Origin: Gammaproteobacteria bacterium
Lineage (GTDB): Bacteria; Pseudomonadota; Gammaproteobacteria; Steroidobacterales; Woeseiaceae
Direction: 5' to 3'
Assembly: GCA_013151645.1 (NCBI GenBank)
Contig: JAADHU010000028.1
Span: 1-64,000 of the forward strand
Length of the DNA stretch: 64,000 nt
A model generated the notes under the pieces. That model did not search any database and had not been told where the DNA came from. It saw nothing but the letters and a program-made list of their open reading frames with translations. A program made the translations under genes and the position numbers. Positions 21,410 through 43,834 of this stretch are shown one piece after another. The first letter of the stretch is position 1. Every line of letters starts with the position of its first letter.

Positions 21410-21715
21410 TTAGTCTGTTCCGTTTATTTCCGTTAAGGAAATTCTGTTTCGGCCTACAAAGATCACGTCTCCTGTATGACCTGATAAAGACAACACAGTT
21501 TCAATTTTTTCTTTGGTTGTCTCATCCAATTCGTTGTTGCTGTAAATAGTAATGGCATCGTTCCGCAATTCGCCATCAAGATTGACAAACAAACTGCCGT
21601 TTTCAGTGCCATCGTCGATGGCCACCCACAGTTGCCTGTCTTGCTTTTGGTCCGCAAATACGCTCGCCGCAGCCAGAAGGGTCACAGTCAGAACGACGAG
21701 CTTTATTGCTTTCAT
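21410..21715 (-). CDS. Small secreted protein of unknown function
   Basis: A 101-residue protein with a clear signal peptide (MKAIKLVVLTVTLLAAASVFA) and a predicted cleavage before DQKQD. The mature part of about 80 residues has no cysteine and reads as alternating strands (LWVAIDDGTENGSLFVNLDG). The ATG follows GGAGGAAG, an ideal ribosome site. The gene is monocistronic, with its own terminator on the minus strand and a T-rich upstream region. No family is recognised. Confidence 0.8.
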   Translation of the reverse strand: MKAIKLVVLTVTLLAAASVFADQKQDRQLWVAIDDGTENGSLFVNLDGELRNDAITIYSNNELDETTKEKIETVLSLSGHTGDVIFVGRNRISLTEINGTD

Positions 21716-21933
21716 CTTCCTCCCTGCGGCCCTGCATGATTCTTTGATGCATTGACGGCCGGTTTGGTTGCAATTTTTTTGATATAAGACGAGCTCTCTT
21801 CCCCTTGCCAAGGAACAGGACTCGCAGATCGAGTATATAGACCGCCCTGAAAGGCGGGTTATTACAAAACATGGTGATCCATCGTCACGTATAATTGCGA
21901 TCTTTGGGGTGCGCGTGATCAGGGAGAAATAAA

Positions 21934-36597: not shown

Positions 36598-37265
36598 CTG
36601 ACAACAACACGATCCTGCAAACATTCCGCAATGGTCTCTGGGACGACAACCCGGGACTCGTGCAACTGCTGGGGCTCTGCCCGCTACTTGCCATCACCAC
36701 AACATTTGTCAACGGATTGGGACTCGGAATAGCCACACTATTCGTCGTCACATGTTCGAACGTGCTGGTGTCTGCCACGCGCGCCTGGATTCGAAGCGAA
36801 ATCCGCATTCCGATGTACGTGCTGATCATCGCCAGCCTGGTCACTTGTATCGAACTGATTTTCAAAGCCTACATGCCCGCGCTCGATCGGACTCTGGGTA
36901 TTTTTATTCCGCTGATTGTCACTAATTGTGCGATTGTCGCTCGTGCCGAGGTGTTTGCGTCCCGCAATCCGATTGGCGCGAGCATGCTCGACGGCCTGGC
37001 CATGGGCACAGGCTTTGCAGCGCTGCTGTGTGCCATCGGTGCATTTCGCGAACTCATCGGCCGCGGCTCGATCATGGCCAACCTCGATATGTTTTTCGGT
37101 GGTGAACCACTATCCGGCCTCGTGATCGTCGATGGCGGCTTCCTGCTCGCCGTTTTACCGCCCGGCGCATTTTTTAGTCTGGCGCTGGCCGTTGCCGGCA
37201 AGAACCATCTTGATCGACGTCGGAAAAACGCGGCGAAGCAAGGCGACCGTATTCATGTCCGTTGA
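36594..37265 (+). CDS. rnfE: Electron transport complex subunit RnfE
   Basis: Integral membrane partner of RnfA, homologous to NqrD. Of 223 residues, six helices are visible, with NPGLVQLLGLCPLLAITTT near the N-terminus and FIPLIVTNCAIVARAEVFAS in the middle; the two Cys positions match those of RnfA that bind the shared cluster. Its N-terminal WDDNPGLV is standard for the subunit. It ends the six rnf genes; nth begins 12 bases later, as in E. coli. Confidence 0.95.
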   Translation: MTDNNTILQTFRNGLWDDNPGLVQLLGLCPLLAITTTFVNGLGLGIATLFVVTCSNVLVSATRAWIRSEIRIPMYVLIIASLVTCIELIFKAYMPALDRTLGIFIPLIVTNCAIVARAEVFASRNPIGASMLDGLAMGTGFAALLCAIGAFRELIGRGSIMANLDMFFGGEPLSGLVIVDGGFLLAVLPPGAFFSLALAVAGKNHLDRRRKNAAKQGDRIHVR

Positions 37266-37277
37266 TGCGCTTCACTC

Positions 37278-37925
37278 GTGAACAAGGACAAGCGCACGGA
37301 AATCTATTCACGCCTGCGGGCGCTGGATCCCCATCCAACCACTGAATTGGAATACAGCAGTCCGTTTGAACTGCTCATCGCCGTCATACTCTCGGCACAA
37401 GCGACCGACATCGGCGTGAACAAAGCGACCGGAAAACTCTACCGCATCGCCAATACGCCGCAAGCAATCCTGGAACTTGGCGTCAGCGGTCTGAAGCGAT
37501 ATATCAAGACGATCGGACTCTACAATACAAAAGCCGAAAACATCATCAAGACCTGTCGCCTGTTGCTGGAAAGACACCACGGAGAGGTTCCAGGTACCCG
37601 GGAGGAGCTTGAGGCCCTGCCCGGCGTCGGGCGTAAAACAGCCAATGTCGTACTGAACACGGCCTTTGGCCAGCCTACCATCGCCGTGGACACGCACATT
37701 TTTCGTGTCGCGAACCGCACCGGACTGGCGAAAGGCAAGACACCGTTGGAGGTAGAAAAGCGTTTGACGAAGCTGACGCCGCAGGAATTTATGCTCGATG
37801 CTCATCACTGGCTCATCCTGCACGGGCGCTACGTGTGCAAAGCCCGCAAGCCCGAGTGCCCGCGATGTGCCATTGCCGATCTGTGCGAATATCGGCACAA
37901 GACGGTTGCCGGGGAGAGCGCATGA
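37278..37925 (+). CDS. nth: Endonuclease III (DNA glycosylase/AP lyase)
   Basis: Base-excision repair enzyme for oxidised pyrimidines. The 215-residue protein (E. coli 211) has the helix-hairpin-helix LPGVGRKTANVVLNTAFG with the catalytic Lys, the catalytic Asp in VDTHIFRVANR, and the C-terminal [4Fe-4S] ligands spaced C-x6-C-x2-C-x5-C (CKARKPECPRCAIADLC). The start is GTG. It is coupled to DUF1841 by an ATGA overlap and follows rnfE, the conserved rnf-nth order. Confidence 0.96.
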   Translation: MNKDKRTEIYSRLRALDPHPTTELEYSSPFELLIAVILSAQATDIGVNKATGKLYRIANTPQAILELGVSGLKRYIKTIGLYNTKAENIIKTCRLLLERHHGEVPGTREELEALPGVGRKTANVVLNTAFGQPTIAVDTHIFRVANRTGLAKGKTPLEVEKRLTKLTPQEFMLDAHHWLILHGRYVCKARKPECPRCAIADLCEYRHKTVAGESA

Positions 37926-38344
37926 TATTCGGCGAGAACCGCTCCGAGTTGCGGCAGATGTACGCGGATGCCTGGCGAAAATTCTGTGCCGACGAGCTGC
38001 TGACGCCGCTGGAAGCGCAAATTGCAGCCGTCGTCGAAGAACACCCGGAATACCAGGCGCTTGTCTCGGGGGGTGCTATCGAAGCCTCGTTTACGGCCGA
38101 CGGTGGACAGACAAATCCCTTCTTGCACATGGGCTTACACCTTGCTCTTCGAGAACAGGTGAGCACTGACCGACCGCCCGGCATCGCGGCCACCCATCGG
38201 CGCCTGGCGCAAAAAAACGGCAATCCACATACCGCTGAACACAGCATGCTCGAAGCGCTGGCGGAAACGCTGTGGGAGGCGCAAAGCGAGAATCGCGCGC
38301 CCGATGAAATAAAGTACATGGAGCGGCTGCGGCGCCTGTCCTGA
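37922..38344 (+). CDS. DUF1841 family protein
   Basis: A soluble protein of 140 residues in the proteobacterial DUF1841 family, whose biochemical role is unknown. Typical text is FHMGLHLALREQVSTDRPPG-like (here FLHMGLHLALREQVSTDRPP), HTAEHSMLEALAETLWEAQ and an N-terminal RSELRQMYADAWRKF. Several conserved His residues (HMGLH, HTAEH) could bind metal. It overlaps the end of nth by four bases, so it is co-translated with a repair enzyme; that linkage is seen in other gammaproteobacteria. Confidence 0.88.
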   Translation: MIFGENRSELRQMYADAWRKFCADELLTPLEAQIAAVVEEHPEYQALVSGGAIEASFTADGGQTNPFLHMGLHLALREQVSTDRPPGIAATHRRLAQKNGNPHTAEHSMLEALAETLWEAQSENRAPDEIKYMERLRRLS

Positions 38345-38433
38345 TCGCGTGGTATTCATCCGCCGTTGTAATAATCTGCGGCAGGTCATGGTCTAATAAG
38401 GGGACTCCATTCCTACACAATGCATTGATTTCC

Positions 38434-39297
38434 ATGGCGACAGCGACAAAAAACTACCCGGTTTCCGGTGCAGGTCTCGGTCTGCGACGAGGATTCATCG
38501 ACAAGCTCATGGCGGCACCTCCGACCGAGGTCGACTTCATGGAAGTGGCTCCCGAGAACTGGATCCATGTCGGTGGCAAGCTCGGCAAGAAGTTTCGTTT
38601 CTTTACGGAACGATACCCGGTCCTGATACACGGTTTATCGCTCAGCATCGGAGCGCCGTCACCACTCAACGAAGCACTCGTTCGCGATATCAAGGATTTT
38701 ATGCGCGTTCATGACATTGGTTTCTACTCAGAACACCTGAGTTACTGCGGGGATGATGGCCAGCTATATGACCTCATGCCACTCCCCTTTACGGAGGAAA
38801 CCGTCAAGTACGTTGCGGCGCGTATTCGACGCGTACAGGACATCCTGGAACAACGCATGGCGATCGAAAACGTGTCTTACTACGCCCCTGCCGACACGAC
38901 GATGACCGAGGCCGACTTCCTGAATGCCGTCATAGAGGAAGCGGACTGCGATCTCCTGCTGGACATCAACAATATTATCGTCAACAGCATCAATCACAAA
39001 TACGACGCGCGCGACTTCATGTTGGCGATGCCCGCTGACCGACTCAGCTACTTCCATTTGGCAGGACACTACGTTGAAGCGGAAGATCTGCGTATCGACA
39101 CTCACGGCGATGCCGTGATTGACCCTGTCTGGAACCTGCTCGGCGAAGCCTACGCACATTTCGGACCGGTACCCACATTGCTCGAACGCGACTTTAATTT
39201 TCCGCCGATGGCCGACCTGTTAGCGGAAGTTCGACGCATCAAGTCGATGCAGGAAGAAGCGCACACGCAGCGATCCGCGGAGGTCGCCAGTGCCTAA
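38434..39297 (+). CDS. MNIO-family multinuclear iron oxygenase (DUF692; HvfB/BufB type)
   Basis: TIM-barrel enzyme of 287 residues. MNIO enzymes use two or three non-haem irons to modify cysteine (thiooxazole, oxazolone/thioamide) in ribosomal peptides that bind copper. Likely metal ligands are visible: VLIHGLSLSIG, FYSEHLSY, MAIENVSYY, LLLDINNIIVN, YFHLAGHYVE and LERDFN. The ATG is chosen over a TTG three codons upstream; neither has a strong ribosome site. It is followed, with an eight-base overlap, by its usual partner DUF2063. No precursor peptide gene (DUF2282 or other) is found on either side. Confidence 0.9.
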   Translation: MATATKNYPVSGAGLGLRRGFIDKLMAAPPTEVDFMEVAPENWIHVGGKLGKKFRFFTERYPVLIHGLSLSIGAPSPLNEALVRDIKDFMRVHDIGFYSEHLSYCGDDGQLYDLMPLPFTEETVKYVAARIRRVQDILEQRMAIENVSYYAPADTTMTEADFLNAVIEEADCDLLLDINNIIVNSINHKYDARDFMLAMPADRLSYFHLAGHYVEAEDLRIDTHGDAVIDPVWNLLGEAYAHFGPVPTLLERDFNFPPMADLLAEVRRIKSMQEEAHTQRSAEVASA

Positions 39298-40060
39298 GAC
39301 AGCTGACTTTAAGGAAAAGCAGTACGCTTTTGCGGCACACATACGGGACCCGGACAACAATCCTGCGCCAACGGGTATCGAGGATCGCCGTATGGCGATT
39401 TACCGGGAGCTGTTTTTCAACAACCTGTTGAATTTGCTCAGCACCACTTTTCCGGTTTTGACGAAACTGCACAGCGGCGAGAAATGGCGCTCGTTCATTC
39501 GCCAGTTCATGGTCGCGCATCAGGCGCAAACACCGTATTTCCTGGAAATCCCGAAAGAGTTTCTGGCTTTCCTCGAAAATGAATACGAAACGAACGACGA
39601 TGACTTCCCGTTCCTGCTGGAACTGGCCCACTACGAATGGGTTGAGCTCGCACTGTCCGTCTCGGAAGAATCGAACGACGACCTGACGGTCGATGCCGAC
39701 GACGATTTTCTGGGCAGCATACCCGTGAAATCACGACTCGCCTGGCCTCTGACCTATCGCTTCCCGGTGCACCGTATCTCCGAGTCCTTTAAACCCGATG
39801 GCGAGAGCGATCAGCCCACCTTCATGGTCATTTACCGAGATCGGCAAGACGAACTGGGCTTTATGGAATTGAATCCCGTCACTGCACGCTTGCTGGAACT
39901 CATCGCTGAGAATGAAAGCAGGAATGGTCGTGAGCTGCTTGAAGCGCTTGCCCGGGAGATCAGCTATCCCGATCCTCCGGCGTTGATCGAACACGGTTTG
40001 ACAGCGATGCAGGAAATGCGAGCCGCAGAAATCCTGATCGGCACAAGGATCGGATCGTAA
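39290..40060 (+). CDS. DUF2063 family MNIO partner protein (HvfC/BufC type)
   Basis: Partner that presents the precursor peptide to the MNIO enzyme. The 256-residue protein begins with the family N-terminal helical domain (FAAHIRDPDNNPAPTGIEDRR cut here as FAAHIRDPDN; MAIYRELFFNNLLNLLSTTF; VAHQAQTPYFLEIPKEFL) and ends in a winged-helix-like region (LNPVTARLLELIAENE). The GTG start lies six bases after GGAGG inside the MNIO gene, a strong site that supports coupling. Pairing with DUF692 is diagnostic. The substrate is unknown because no precursor is visible. Confidence 0.9.
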   Translation: MPKTADFKEKQYAFAAHIRDPDNNPAPTGIEDRRMAIYRELFFNNLLNLLSTTFPVLTKLHSGEKWRSFIRQFMVAHQAQTPYFLEIPKEFLAFLENEYETNDDDFPFLLELAHYEWVELALSVSEESNDDLTVDADDDFLGSIPVKSRLAWPLTYRFPVHRISESFKPDGESDQPTFMVIYRDRQDELGFMELNPVTARLLELIAENESRNGRELLEALAREISYPDPPALIEHGLTAMQEMRAAEILIGTRIGS

Positions 40061-40129
40061 GCGATATAGCCGCGCCGGATTCAACAAACAGCACTCCCAA
40101 CAACAATTCACTCAATCGGAGACGGAATA

Positions 40130-40732
40130 ATGCAATTTCTCATACGTATGCAGGGATGGATGAATGCAACGAAAGCCGCAGACTTTCTCGGTCCGCTGGC
40201 CCTCAGGCTGTATCTCGTACCGGTATTCTGGGTGGCAGGCACCAACAAGCTCGATGGCATGGACGATGTTATCGCCTGGTTCGGGAACCCGGATTGGGGC
40301 CTGGGCCTGCCCTTTCCAACGCTGCTGGCGTGGCTCGCCGTCGGTTCTGAAGTACTCGGCGCCATTGCATTGTTAATCGGTCTCGGCACGCGCTGGTTTT
40401 CAATTCCCCTGATGGTCACCATGCTGGTCGCCGCATTCAGCGTGCACTGGAAAAACGGCTGGCAAGCGATTGCTGACCCAATGAGTCCGTTCGCGAATGA
40501 AAATGTTGCGGGTGCGATAGATCGACTGGACAAAGCGAAAGACCTGCTCAAGGAACATGGCAATTACGACTGGCTGACGGAAACCGGTAACTTTGTGATC
40601 TCGAACAACGGCATCGAGTGGGCCATCACGTACGCCGTGATGCTGCTCGCCCTGTTCTTCAGTGGTGCCGGCAAGCTCAGCCTCGATCACTTGATTGCGA
40701 CACGATTCGCCGTCAACGGCAGCAAGTTATAA
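40130..40732 (+). CDS. DoxX-family membrane protein
   Basis: Inner-membrane protein of 200 residues with four membrane helices, matching DoxX: LRLYLVPVFWVAGTNKLDGM near residue 25, LAWLAVGSEVLGAIALLIGLG and a final LLALFFSGAGKLSLDHL. It has an insertion of about 55 residues between helices three and four. DoxX genes often sit in MNIO/DUF2063 (buf/hvf) operons, so a role in redox or quinone-linked processing is likely there. The ATG follows GGAGACGGAATA. It ends the three-gene operon. Confidence 0.88.
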   Translation: MQFLIRMQGWMNATKAADFLGPLALRLYLVPVFWVAGTNKLDGMDDVIAWFGNPDWGLGLPFPTLLAWLAVGSEVLGAIALLIGLGTRWFSIPLMVTMLVAAFSVHWKNGWQAIADPMSPFANENVAGAIDRLDKAKDLLKEHGNYDWLTETGNFVISNNGIEWAITYAVMLLALFFSGAGKLSLDHLIATRFAVNGSKL

Positions 40733-40821
40733 GATCGTCGGGTCGGATGTGAATAACGACAGGGCCGCGATCACGTTGCCCTGTAGCCATTCCGTCCAAA
40801 GCCAACTGAGGTATCAGAAAG

Positions 40822-42336
40822 ATGCGCGATTTCCTGTTTCACGCCATGAGCATTCTGCAAGCGATGTCAGCAGTGCTCGTTTTCCTGCTGGGCCTTGGTC
40901 TGTTCGCAATCATCGTCATGTATGTCGTCGACAAGACCCAGACGCGCAGCGCCATTCGTCGAAACTTTCCGGTGGTCGGCCGGTTTCGTTATTTTTTCGA
41001 GAACCTCGGTGAGTATTTCCGGCAGTATTTTTTCGCGCAGGATCGCGAGGAGATGCCGTTCAACCGGGCGCAGCGCTCCTGGGTATACCGGGCCGCGAAA
41101 AACCTCGATAACACCATTGCTTTTGGCTCAACAAGAGACCTGCGACCGGTTGGTACCGTCATTTTTGTTAACTGCCCTTATCCGGTTCTGGAAACCAGCA
41201 TTGCGAAAACCTCGCCGCTGACCATTGGTCCCCATACATCGCAACCTTACGTAACCGATTCCATATTCAACGTTTCGGCGATGAGTTTTGGAGCAATCTC
41301 AAGACCCGCTGTACTGGCATTGTCTAAAGGTTCAGCGATGGCCGGCAACTGGATGAATACCGGCGAAGGCGGGCTGTCGCCGTACCACCTGGAAGGTGGT
41401 GCCGATATAGTATTTCAAATTGGCACCGCGAAATACGGCGTACGCAACGAGGACGGCAGCCTCAGCGACGAAAAGCTAAAGGAAGTTGCCGCGCACGATC
41501 AGGTTAAAATGATCGAACTCAAGTTGAGCCAGGGGGCGAAACCGGGCAAAGGCGGCATCCTTCCGGGAGCCAAAGTGACCAAAGAGATCGCGAAGATTCG
41601 CGGCATTCCACCGGGTGCCGATTCGATCAGCCCGAACCGCCATCCAGAGGTGGATTCAGGTGAAGACCTGCTCAACATGATCAATCATATTCGCGACGTC
41701 ACGGGCCTGCCGGTCGGCTTCAAGGCGGTCATCGGTGCCTACGGTTGGCTCGACGAGCTATTTACGTTGATACACGAACGCGGTATTGAATCGGCGCCCG
41801 ACTTCATCACCGTCGATTCAGGCGACGGTGGCACCGGTGCCGCCCCCATGAGCCTGATGGATAGCGTTGGCTTGCCGTTGCGCGAAAGCCTGCCGCTGCT
41901 CGTTGACATGATTGACCACCACGGCCTTGGTGACCGAATTTTTGTCATCGCAAGCGGCAAACTGATCACTCCGACCGAGGCCGCATGGGCATTGTGCGTG
42001 GGCGCTGATTTCATTAATTCAGCGCGCGGCTTCATGTTTTCGCTGGGATGTGTCCAGGCACTGCAGTGCAACAAGAATACCTGCCCAACCGGTATCGCCA
42101 CGCACGAAAAACATTTGCAACGAGGTCTGGACGTTGCAGATAAAGCCGAGCGGGTTCATCAATACTCGAAAAACATCCGCAAGGAAATCGGCATCATTGC
42201 GCATTCCTGTGGCGTCAGTGAACCACGGCAATTGAAACGTTTTCACTGTCGCGTGGTCGGTGAAGATGGCCGCTCTACGCCGCTTGATGAACTTTATCCC
42301 CCGCAAAGCGCAGAGTCAGCGGCTACCGTTTCTTAG
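40822..42336 (+). CDS. Membrane-anchored FMN glutamate synthase-like protein
   Basis: A 504-residue protein with an N-terminal membrane helix (about 13-36) and a glutamate-synthase central FMN barrel: NVSAMSFGAISRPAVLALSKG, NTGEGGLSPYHLEGG, GAKPGKGGILPGAKV, SGDGGTGAAPMSLMD and ASGKL. A 3Fe-4S motif with spacing C-x5-C-x4-C (CVQALQCNKNTCPTGIATH) is intact. The amidotransferase domain of GltB is absent, so it cannot produce glutamate from glutamine alone. Such stand-alone proteins are widespread and of uncertain function. Its last 14 bases overlap the convergent lpd gene. Confidence 0.88.
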   Translation: MRDFLFHAMSILQAMSAVLVFLLGLGLFAIIVMYVVDKTQTRSAIRRNFPVVGRFRYFFENLGEYFRQYFFAQDREEMPFNRAQRSWVYRAAKNLDNTIAFGSTRDLRPVGTVIFVNCPYPVLETSIAKTSPLTIGPHTSQPYVTDSIFNVSAMSFGAISRPAVLALSKGSAMAGNWMNTGEGGLSPYHLEGGADIVFQIGTAKYGVRNEDGSLSDEKLKEVAAHDQVKMIELKLSQGAKPGKGGILPGAKVTKEIAKIRGIPPGADSISPNRHPEVDSGEDLLNMINHIRDVTGLPVGFKAVIGAYGWLDELFTLIHERGIESAPDFITVDSGDGGTGAAPMSLMDSVGLPLRESLPLLVDMIDHHGLGDRIFVIASGKLITPTEAAWALCVGADFINSARGFMFSLGCVQALQCNKNTCPTGIATHEKHLQRGLDVADKAERVHQYSKNIRKEIGIIAHSCGVSEPRQLKRFHCRVVGEDGRSTPLDELYPPQSAESAATVS

Positions 42337-43834
42337 GCATATACAAGTCCGTCAGCGTTCCTTCAAACGCTTCCGCCGCGAACGCGATGGTTTCGGACAA
42401 TGTTGGATGCGGGTGCACGGTGAGACCTATATCCGCGGCGTCCGCCCCCATCTCTACCGCGAGTCCCACTTCCGCAATCAGCTCACCCGCACCGGGCCCG
42501 ACAATGCCACCGCCGAGCACTCTGCCGCTGCTCTTGTCGAACAGCAGCTTCGTAAAGCCTTCATCACGACCGAGCGATAATGCGCGGCCACTCGCGGCCC
42601 AGGGGAATTGCGCTTTCTCATACTCAATGCCGTCGCGTTTCGCGTCGGACTCCGTGAGACCGACCCATGCGATTTCCGGGTCTGTGTAAGCCACCGACGG
42701 AATCGTGCGAGCGTCAAAAGCGCTCTTCTCACCCGCCGCCACTTCGGCGGCGACTTTGGCCTCATGAGAGGCCTTGTGGGCAAGCATCGGTCCCGGCACG
42801 AGATCGCCAATCGCAAATATATGTGGCGCGCTGGTCTGCATCTGTTTGTTGACGGCAATGACACCGCGCTCATCGACTGCTATGCCGGCATTGCCGGCAT
42901 CCAGTTTATCGCCATTCGCGCGACGCCCCACGGCAATCAGGACGCGATCATAAAGCTGTGCAATTGGCGCGTTCTTACCCTCGAAACTAACCTCGATCCC
43001 GGCCGCCGTTGCGTGCATGCCGGTGACTTTTGTGCCCAGCATGATGCTGTCATAGCGCTTTTTGATGATTTTCTGAAAGGGACGAACCAGGTCAGGATCG
43101 GTGCCGGGCATGAGCGAATCCATTAGTTCAACGACGCTCACTTCCACGCCCAGCGCGTTGTAAACGCAGGCCATTTCGAGGCCGATAATGCCGCCGCCGA
43201 CAACCAGCAGTCGCTTCGGCAAGGGATCCAGTTCGAGTGCACCGCTGGAATCCACGATACGTGGATCATCCGGAAGACCCGGAATACGGATACTTTGTGA
43301 GCCTGCGGCAATGATGCATTTTTCAAAATCCACGAACTCGCCATTGTCCAGTACCAGACGGTTGGCCGAATGAAATTTCGCGGTACCTTGCAAGACGGTG
43401 ACTTTGCGCTGTTTTGCAAGTTGTTCGAGCCCGCCCGTCAGGCGACCGACGATCTCATTCTTCCACTGGCCGATTGCCGCTGCATCGATCACTGGTTTGC
43501 CGAAAACAACGCCATGAGCAGCCATCGCCTCAGCCTCATCGATCACTTTTGCAGCATGCAGCAATGCTTTGGACGGAATGCAGCCAACGTTAAGGCAGAC
43601 GCCGCCCAGATTCGGATAGCGCTCGACGAGAATCACTTGCATACCCAGGTCCGCCGCACGGAATGCCGCCGTGTAGCCACCTGGGCCCGCTCCGATCACG
43701 ACCAGCTCGGCGTTATGGACCACTCCCTGATCCGGCGTCAGCGCCTTCTCCTGAATCGTGGTCGCGGAAGATATCGCCGCATCCCGTTCAGCGGGATCCA
43801 TGACGATGGTTGAATCGTGAGTCTCGTCGGACAC
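42323..43834 (-). CDS. lpdA: Dihydrolipoyl dehydrogenase (E3)
   Basis: Flavoprotein that reoxidises dihydrolipoyl groups of the pyruvate dehydrogenase complex with NAD. The 503-residue protein carries the FAD fold VVIGAGPGGYTAAFRAADLG, the redox disulfide GGVCLNVGCIPSKALLH, the NAD fold LLVVGGGIIGLEMACVY and the dimer-interface HPHPTLSE. About 40 residues precede the FAD fold, more than usual for E3 (about 475), so the true start could be internal (ATG12 or a later GTG). Third gene of aceE-aceF-lpd, overlapping aceF by one base. Confidence 0.95.
   Translation of the reverse strand: MSDETHDSTIVMDPAERDAAISSATTIQEKALTPDQGVVHNAELVVIGAGPGGYTAAFRAADLGMQVILVERYPNLGGVCLNVGCIPSKALLHAAKVIDEAEAMAAHGVVFGKPVIDAAAIGQWKNEIVGRLTGGLEQLAKQRKVTVLQGTAKFHSANRLVLDNGEFVDFEKCIIAAGSQSIRIPGLPDDPRIVDSSGALELDPLPKRLLVVGGGIIGLEMACVYNALGVEVSVVELMDSLMPGTDPDLVRPFQKIIKKRYDSIMLGTKVTGMHATAAGIEVSFEGKNAPIAQLYDRVLIAVGRRANGDKLDAGNAGIAVDERGVIAVNKQMQTSAPHIFAIGDLVPGPMLAHKASHEAKVAAEVAAGEKSAFDARTIPSVAYTDPEIAWVGLTESDAKRDGIEYEKAQFPWAASGRALSLGRDEGFTKLLFDKSSGRVLGGGIVGPGAGELIAEVGLAVEMGADAADIGLTVHPHPTLSETIAFAAEAFEGTLTDLYMPKKR

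Follow-up and report, generated by a model that had tools for sequence, protein, structure and literature searches.

The hvfB-hvfC-hvfX operon in the 64,000-nucleotide stretch of gammaproteobacterial DNA analyzed here (the window) very probably belongs to a split captophorin-type pathway, i.e., a pathway for a thiooxazole copper peptide, in which the precursor gene hvfA is located elsewhere in the genome behind a gene pair encoding an ECF sigma factor and a DUF3379 protein, and in which both halves form one regulon (probability about 0.8). The identities of the genes, the single precursor identified, the conservation of the split, a promoter-like signal common to both halves, and the excess of this signal in genomes with DUF3379 are all observed by sequence.

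Our analysis of positions 38434-40732 confirmed these to be an MNIO/DUF2063/DoxX operon without an adjoining precursor, as the original prediction had proposed. The first gene, hvfB (38434..39297, + strand, with an alternative TTG start at 38425), encodes an MNIO (formerly DUF692) peptide maturase, which scores 420.7 bits against NF003818 (cut-off 360) and 339.1 bits against Pfam MbnB_TglH_ChrH, matches the solved structure PDB 3bww (E=3.6e-73), and stays under the BufB cut-off (NF050167, 262.5 bits vs 310). It overlaps by 8 bases with hvfC (39290..40060, +), which encodes the DUF2063/PME1 partner protein (NF050145, 305.7 bits, cut-off 142; PF09836 and PF22106), and this is followed by hvfX (40130..40732, +), which encodes a DoxX-family membrane protein (NF050144, 237.4 bits, cut-off 80; PF07681). 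Woeseiaceae have two kinds of DoxX gene after hvfC, one with ~71-90% and the other with only ~30% identity to the hvfX of the window (the loci contrasted were L077-L078 and L087-L092, among others, vs L067-L069 and L072-L073).

Immediately upstream of the operon are a DUF1841 gene that is a conserved neighbor of hvfB (37925..38344, +; PF08897, 168.3 bits) and an endonuclease III gene (37278..37925, +; PF00730 and PF00633), which we take to be nth, with genes further upstream that are presumably rsxG and rsxE. Downstream of hvfX is a gene (40822-42336) matching a glutamate-synthase domain of Pfam, and we assume an opposite-strand gene downstream of the operon to be lpdA. Both the nth-DUF1841 neighborhood and the upstream gap of ~90 bases had been described correctly, with 89 bases separating the DUF1841 stop at 38344 from the ATG at 38434 (80 to the TTG at 38425). 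The absence of a small exported Cys-rich frame from the operon also held when 37200-42400 was scanned in six frames, stop to stop: there was no EGxCG-like motif in any frame, and the 12 listed frames with at least five Cys were the nth frame itself or other-frame readings across longer genes. An overlooked small precursor inside the operon is ruled out by this six-frame motif scan and by the loci of relatives. No RNA element in 37000-43000 reached the Rfam gathering score.

The genome containing the window (3.96 Mb, 83 contigs, completeness 98.06) has one MNIO match only, and it contains a gene for an HvfA-type precursor of 161 aa on a contig other than that of the operon (G000:C76:14790-15275, equal to L066:6791-7276; NF050137, 37.4 bits, cut-off 19.5). 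This hvfA gene is in line with the ECF-DUF3379 gene pair, between hemB and tag. Examination of the HvfA N-terminus by eye showed a positive start, a hydrophobic stretch and an A-D cleavage-like site; the hydrophobic start segment together with SPFAMTTLSAGYM is followed by nine EG[S/K]CG motifs, eight of which are EGSCG, not EGKCG. The gene contains a 39-bp tandem repeat in 7.1 copies, a repeat number that may be wrong because the assembly is a draft. A genome-wide search with NF050137, the HvfA repeat domain, at E<=1 identified this place only, with three hits in one frame, and the narrower HvfA equivalog model NF050188 gave 29.7 bits on the protein, far under its cut-off of 95. The exact EGKCG DNA pattern also occurs in one place in this genome (C76), vs one for the backwards control, and we regard this place as more than chance because the surrounding gene is HvfA-like.

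The first search suggested by the original prediction, for a DUF2282 (bufferin) precursor, led nowhere: PF10048 has no match in this genome, and such a precursor is rejected. The prediction had otherwise left a choice between a precursor encoded elsewhere and another substrate for the enzyme; the former is favored by the single HvfA-family gene on C76 and by the EGKCG-type residues of the enzyme, and the HvfA-family and DUF2282 searches of this genome gave no positive sign of the latter. The operon is an ordinary HvfBCX set, and its MNIO is probably not orphaned, with the precursor most likely in trans.

HvfB carries R18-R19, N179/N180, D222, H224 and D253-F254, as checked by script. By motif, not by numbered alignment, R18-R19 and D253-F254 correspond to residues described in PMC12668002 for catalysis and EGKCG-type specificity, and the site-3 residues of PMC13419390 are matched by N179/N180, D222 and H224. 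In these two papers, the corresponding residues are reported to be required for activity or to govern the choice of EGKCG-type substrates, with Arg-Arg and Asp-Phe tied to EGKCG substrates (PMC12668002). Across the 80 named hvfB loci, the double-Arg motif is present in 72 and ERDFN in 79, and a second, bufferin-type MNIO in one Woeseiaceae genome (G009) has ERDDN in place of ERDFN.

We searched 149 genomes from the same genus, family and order, including the genome under study, with those numbered G000-G090 taken as the Woeseiaceae set by inferred family assignment. Counts of hvfA used the A1 profile at E below 1e-10, because NF050137 at E<=0.001 misses the genome under study; A1 includes the HvfA of this genome, so that its A1 E-value there does not count as independent evidence. 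Before counting, we dropped eight A1 hits at E>1e-3 (most in large frames, and three being second hits in genomes that also have a true one). In the linkage count, hvfB hits had to exceed the curated cut-off, with MNIO hits under it (bufferin-type) left out, and for co-occurrence across the 149 genomes the hvfB fragments of G020 and G069 were counted as well. In Woeseiaceae, 70 genomes contain hvfB over the cut-off, 71 contain hvfA, and 67 contain both. With the two fragments counted, both genes are present in 97 of the 149 genomes, hvfA only in 2, hvfB only in 10 and neither in 40, i.e., presence or absence agrees in 137 of 149 (Fisher p 2e-24, a value that ignores phylogeny). The 10 genomes with hvfB and no hvfA and the four Woeseiaceae genomes with hvfA and no over-cut-off hvfB, two of which are G020 and G069, include several incomplete ones. 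The hvfB gene of G020 (C10:9685-10444) is in two pieces with an apparently broken frame, in a genome that retains hvfA.

The split of hvfA from hvfB is the rule in Woeseiaceae, where none of the 67 genomes with both genes has them linked. In 65 of these genomes the two genes are on different contigs, which does not by itself prove distance, and in the 2 genomes that provide the one-contig evidence they are 2.1 and 2.4 Mb apart (in G006, the gap would be 1.7 Mb the other way round if the 4.06-Mb contig is circular). In other families of the order, 28 genomes contain both genes, with 24 not having them on one contig and 4 having them within 1.2 kb; the linked hvfA of one such locus (L040) has 38% identity to the N-terminus of the HvfA under study.

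Neighborhoods in relatives showed the same arrangement from both sides. For example, 49 of the 50 nearest hvfB loci from named genomes (L067-L116) have DUF1841 upstream, the remaining one (L103) being cut by a contig end, and none contains an HvfA-like frame with at least three EGxCG-like motifs, some of these contigs being short. A further 30 more distant hvfB loci (L117-L146) include 20 with an HvfA-like frame, and in ten of these gammaproteobacterial loci (L117, L119, L122-L126, L130, L140 and L145) hvfA is located between DUF1841 and hvfB. A precursor directly upstream in relatives, which the original prediction had named as evidence against itself, is found in these ten more distant loci and in none of the 50 nearest. 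We also inspected 40 hvfA loci of relatives, 28 from Woeseiaceae and 12 from other families. Every Woeseiaceae locus contains a DUF3379 homologue and 27 of the 28 an ECF gene (L149 is cut by a contig end), with hemB divergent ahead of ECF-DUF3379-hvfA wherever the locus extends far enough, and with tag directly after hvfA in most loci and kilobases off in some (L166, L168 and L169). ECF and DUF3379 genes are both present in 9 of the 12 loci from other families, and are absent from L176, L177 and L182. BLAST with the HvfA under study failed at a few loci where the profile matched (e.g., L174, L179 and L183). In a second genome of the same genus, hvfA is 92% and the ECF gene 95% identical to those of the genome under study.

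That the split is an artefact of assembly or binning, with hvfA truly beside hvfB or derived from another organism, is extremely unlikely; this draft assembly has 83 contigs, but the DUF1841-hvfB junction without hvfA recurs in the 49 nearby loci above, hemB-ECF-DUF3379-hvfA loci are present in relatives that include the other genome of the same genus, and two near-complete assemblies place hvfA and hvfB megabases apart. A simple history would be that hvfA was once located between DUF1841 and hvfB and is now behind the ECF gene in Woeseiaceae; duplication followed by loss would fit equally, because several genomes (G094, G105, G113 and G118) hold two hvfA genes.

The same data bear on whether HvfBC instead acts on a different substrate, either an exported Cys peptide or a protein, with the HvfA-like protein being an unmodified repeat protein. 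We consider this to be improbable: although hvfA and hvfB are unlinked and each is found alone in some genomes, the repeats are EGSCG and not EGKCG, and the HvfA equivalog model is not reached, the agreement in presence and absence, the promoter-like signal common to both genes, the EGKCG-enzyme type of the HvfB specificity residues, and a related hvfA directly adjoining hvfB in 4 of 28 other-family genomes all argue against it.

The signal common to both halves, GTAATA[A/T]-N15-GGTC, was spotted by side-by-side reading of upstream sequences. In the window, an ECF-type promoter-like site, TGTAATAA-N15-GGTCT (38367..38394, +), is located 39 bases before the hvfB ATG, and a matching site before the ECF-DUF3379-hvfA genes (G000:C76:13420-13447) is located 6 bases before the ECF start codon. 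With a spacer of exactly 15 bases, the signal precedes hvfB in 50 of 51 loci (missing in L079) and the ECF gene in 34 of 36 (missing in L158 and L185). Allowing spacers of 14-16 over the 1.13 Mb of hvfB and ECF loci gave 87 hits, 84 of which are these hvfB and ECF sites, with one of the three remaining hits in the window at 21865, one in L159 and one in L174. Pairwise identity between loci is 97-100% in the boxes, a figure partly built in by selecting rows by pattern, vs 31 and 36% in the spacer, 30 and 33% in the 20 bases upstream, and 40 and 60% in the 15 bases downstream. The signal is absent at four linked hvfA loci (L251-L254), and from the 30 more distant hvfB loci save for GTAATAG variants in L129 and L134. 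Given this common promoter-like signal, the split halves are probably switched on jointly.

We counted a strict form of the signal, [G/T]GTAATA[A/T]-N15-GGTCT, using the reversed motif as a control. The genome under study contains 7 strict sites vs 0 for the control, and a shorter pattern with one mismatch allowed gave a small excess there, 83 vs 60. Strict sites number 133 vs 15 in the 90 genomes with DUF3379, and 10 vs 6 in the 59 without; after removal of the hvfB and ECF sites, which are the source from which the motif was read, the counts are 57 vs 15 and 7 vs 6, respectively. The 143 strict sites comprise 64 before hvfB, 15 before ECF genes and 64 elsewhere, with the gene behind these last sites inspected for part of them only; ECF sites are few in the strict count because those of Woeseiaceae mostly read GGTCA. 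There is no strict site in 11 of the 90 genomes with DUF3379, and 7 of the 59 without DUF3379 contain one. Sites closely like the hvfB signal of G067 are present in two small genomes with no hit for either hvfA or hvfB (G048:C33:11424-11451 and G064:C44:13380-13407), perhaps as a remnant.

The other five of the 7 strict sites in the genome under study precede genes for two thioredoxin-fold AhpC/TSA-family proteins (C11 and C28), for a protein resembling PLP decarboxylases (30.1 bits, cut-off 27) and for a DUF547 protein, as well as an ORF of the window. This last copy of the signal (21839..21866, - strand) is located 123 bases before a putative exported ORF of 101 aa (21410-21715, -) that has no Pfam match. 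Relatives of both redoxins are divergent in G111, from another family, with one site each. Strict sites also precede bufferin operons, which are targets outside the motif derivation: in G009 the site is before a BufA2 precursor gene (NF050166, 128.5 bits, cut-off 60), after which comes the second MNIO, and in G141 it is before a DUF2282 precursor gene (90.3 bits, cut-off 22.4) and its MNIO. G141 lacks both hvfA and an over-cut-off hvfB, and has a looser form of the signal before its ECF-DUF3379 genes. Several other sites (e.g., in L222, L240, L241 and L245) precede genes without an evident link.

It is conceivable, if unlikely, that the genes belong together while the signal is that of another sigma factor or a different element, with the hvfA-adjacent ECF regulating other genes. 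G007, which retains ECF-DUF3379 without hvfA, hvfB or the signal, would fit this, as would the many signal sites that are not at MNIO genes; against it are the two boxes at a fixed 15-base spacing close before the ECF and hvfB start codons of the genome under study, the excess of sites in DUF3379 genomes with hardly any in those without, and the signal before both the ECF gene and the bufferin operon of G141. Autoregulated ECF promoters are located before the ECF's own gene, and the signal precedes the ECF's own gene in like manner, which again favors control of both halves by the hvfA-adjacent ECF. In G007 (L247, on C59), the ECF-DUF3379 pair is between hemB and tag, and part of the N-terminus seems to be repeated within the DUF3379 ORF.

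The ECF protein under study contains sigma regions 2 and 4 (PF04542, 46.8 bits, and PF08281, 51.3 bits, each exceeding its cut-off; TIGR02937, 73 bits, cut-off 42.9). In 28 of 35 aligned DUF3379 proteins, HxxxCxxC, which we take to be the zinc-type anti-sigma (ZAS) motif, is present in the first 60 residues, where the protein under study has HASACTSC and 7 of the 35 lack the motif. In the numbering of the protein under study, His127, Cys170 and His179 are invariant (35/35), His130 is present in 33 of 35, and a hydrophobic stretch near residues 92-112 resembles a membrane helix by eye. Based on gene position, HxxxCxxC, the conserved residues and the helix-like stretch, DUF3379 is likely to be a membrane-anchored anti-sigma factor. 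A single-sequence search of DUF3379 against solved structures found nothing credible (best E=0.59), and a simple scan of the forward strand of the DUF3379-hvfA interval, with hits at chance level, found no sigma-70-like promoter or terminator.

From these features we infer how the system might be switched on. An envelope signal, either copper or thiol/oxidative stress, would act on the DUF3379 protein as a membrane-anchored anti-sigma factor, and the freed ECF sigma would recognize the GTAATAW-N15-GGTC promoter, transcribing from it both its own operon, with hvfA cotranscribed, and the unlinked hvfBCX. HvfC would then present HvfA to HvfB, which would convert the Cys in the EGxCG repeats to 5-thiooxazole, and the modified HvfA peptide would be exported and bind Cu(I).

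The hvfABCX (oxazolin) system of Haemophilus influenzae, with RpoE2, shares the enzyme and its partner, the DoxX protein and the repeat precursor with the system here (PMC13419390 and PMC7907618). Since PMC7907618 describes RpoE2 as controlling both MsrAB and the doxX-hvf cluster under hypochlorite, it is already known that hvf genes can be under ECF control together with redox repair, and ECF-sigma control alongside envelope redox-repair genes is likewise predicted here from sequence. The two systems differ in that the H. influenzae precursor is in the same operon, whereas here it is behind a separate ECF-DUF3379 pair, and in that the anti-sigma factor HrsE is a cytoplasmic protein of 67 aa, whereas here the partner is larger with a membrane-helix-like stretch (by eye). 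The fontiphorin/captophorin class (PMC12668002) combines an EGKCG-type precursor with an MNIO and a PME1 partner, and has Arg-Arg and Asp-Phe residues as here; it is described as a gene cluster, and the precursor here differs in having 13-residue repeats with one EGSCG each. The HvfABCX/captophorin pathway usually, though not obligatorily, clusters the precursor with the MNIO, and here they are not clustered. Bufferins BufA1/BufA2 with a sigma factor and NrsF share the MNIO, DUF2063 and DoxX core and differ in precursor and Cys pattern, with the sigma/NrsF genes reported in Buf1 clusters (PMC12452194). The same source counts, within its largest MNIO cluster, ~4,000 enzymes without any of the four described precursor types adjoining, hundreds of which have some small Cys-bearing ORF directly upstream, and it notes that a distant MNIO might modify unlinked precursors, or that these might stay unmodified (PMC12452194).

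DUF3379 is named in no paper of the open-access library searched, and the open-access literature matches listed contain no report of a Woeseiaceae-type hvfA/hvfB split or a DUF3379-linked regulon. As far as checked, three features are new: the split throughout the family, the ECF-DUF3379 pair in front of hvfA, and a promoter-like signal linking the two halves. Woeseia sp. is listed among the groups that dominate copper surfaces in seawater (PMC6917582).

These findings pair one such "orphan" MNIO set with its likely precursor using a genome-wide family search, co-occurrence and a common promoter-like signal, a route that is usable for others, and they provide DUF3379 with a candidate site for sensing and a role that can be tested. 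A more tentative proposal, to which we give somewhat less than even odds, is that DUF3379 spans the membrane as an anti-sigma factor, that its outer domain (with His127, Cys170, His179 and His130) senses copper or thiol stress directly, and that it commands a dispersed regulon of HvfA, BufA1 and BufA2 thiooxazole metallophores and redoxins; if true, precursor dose and enzyme dose would be set from separate loci by one switch.
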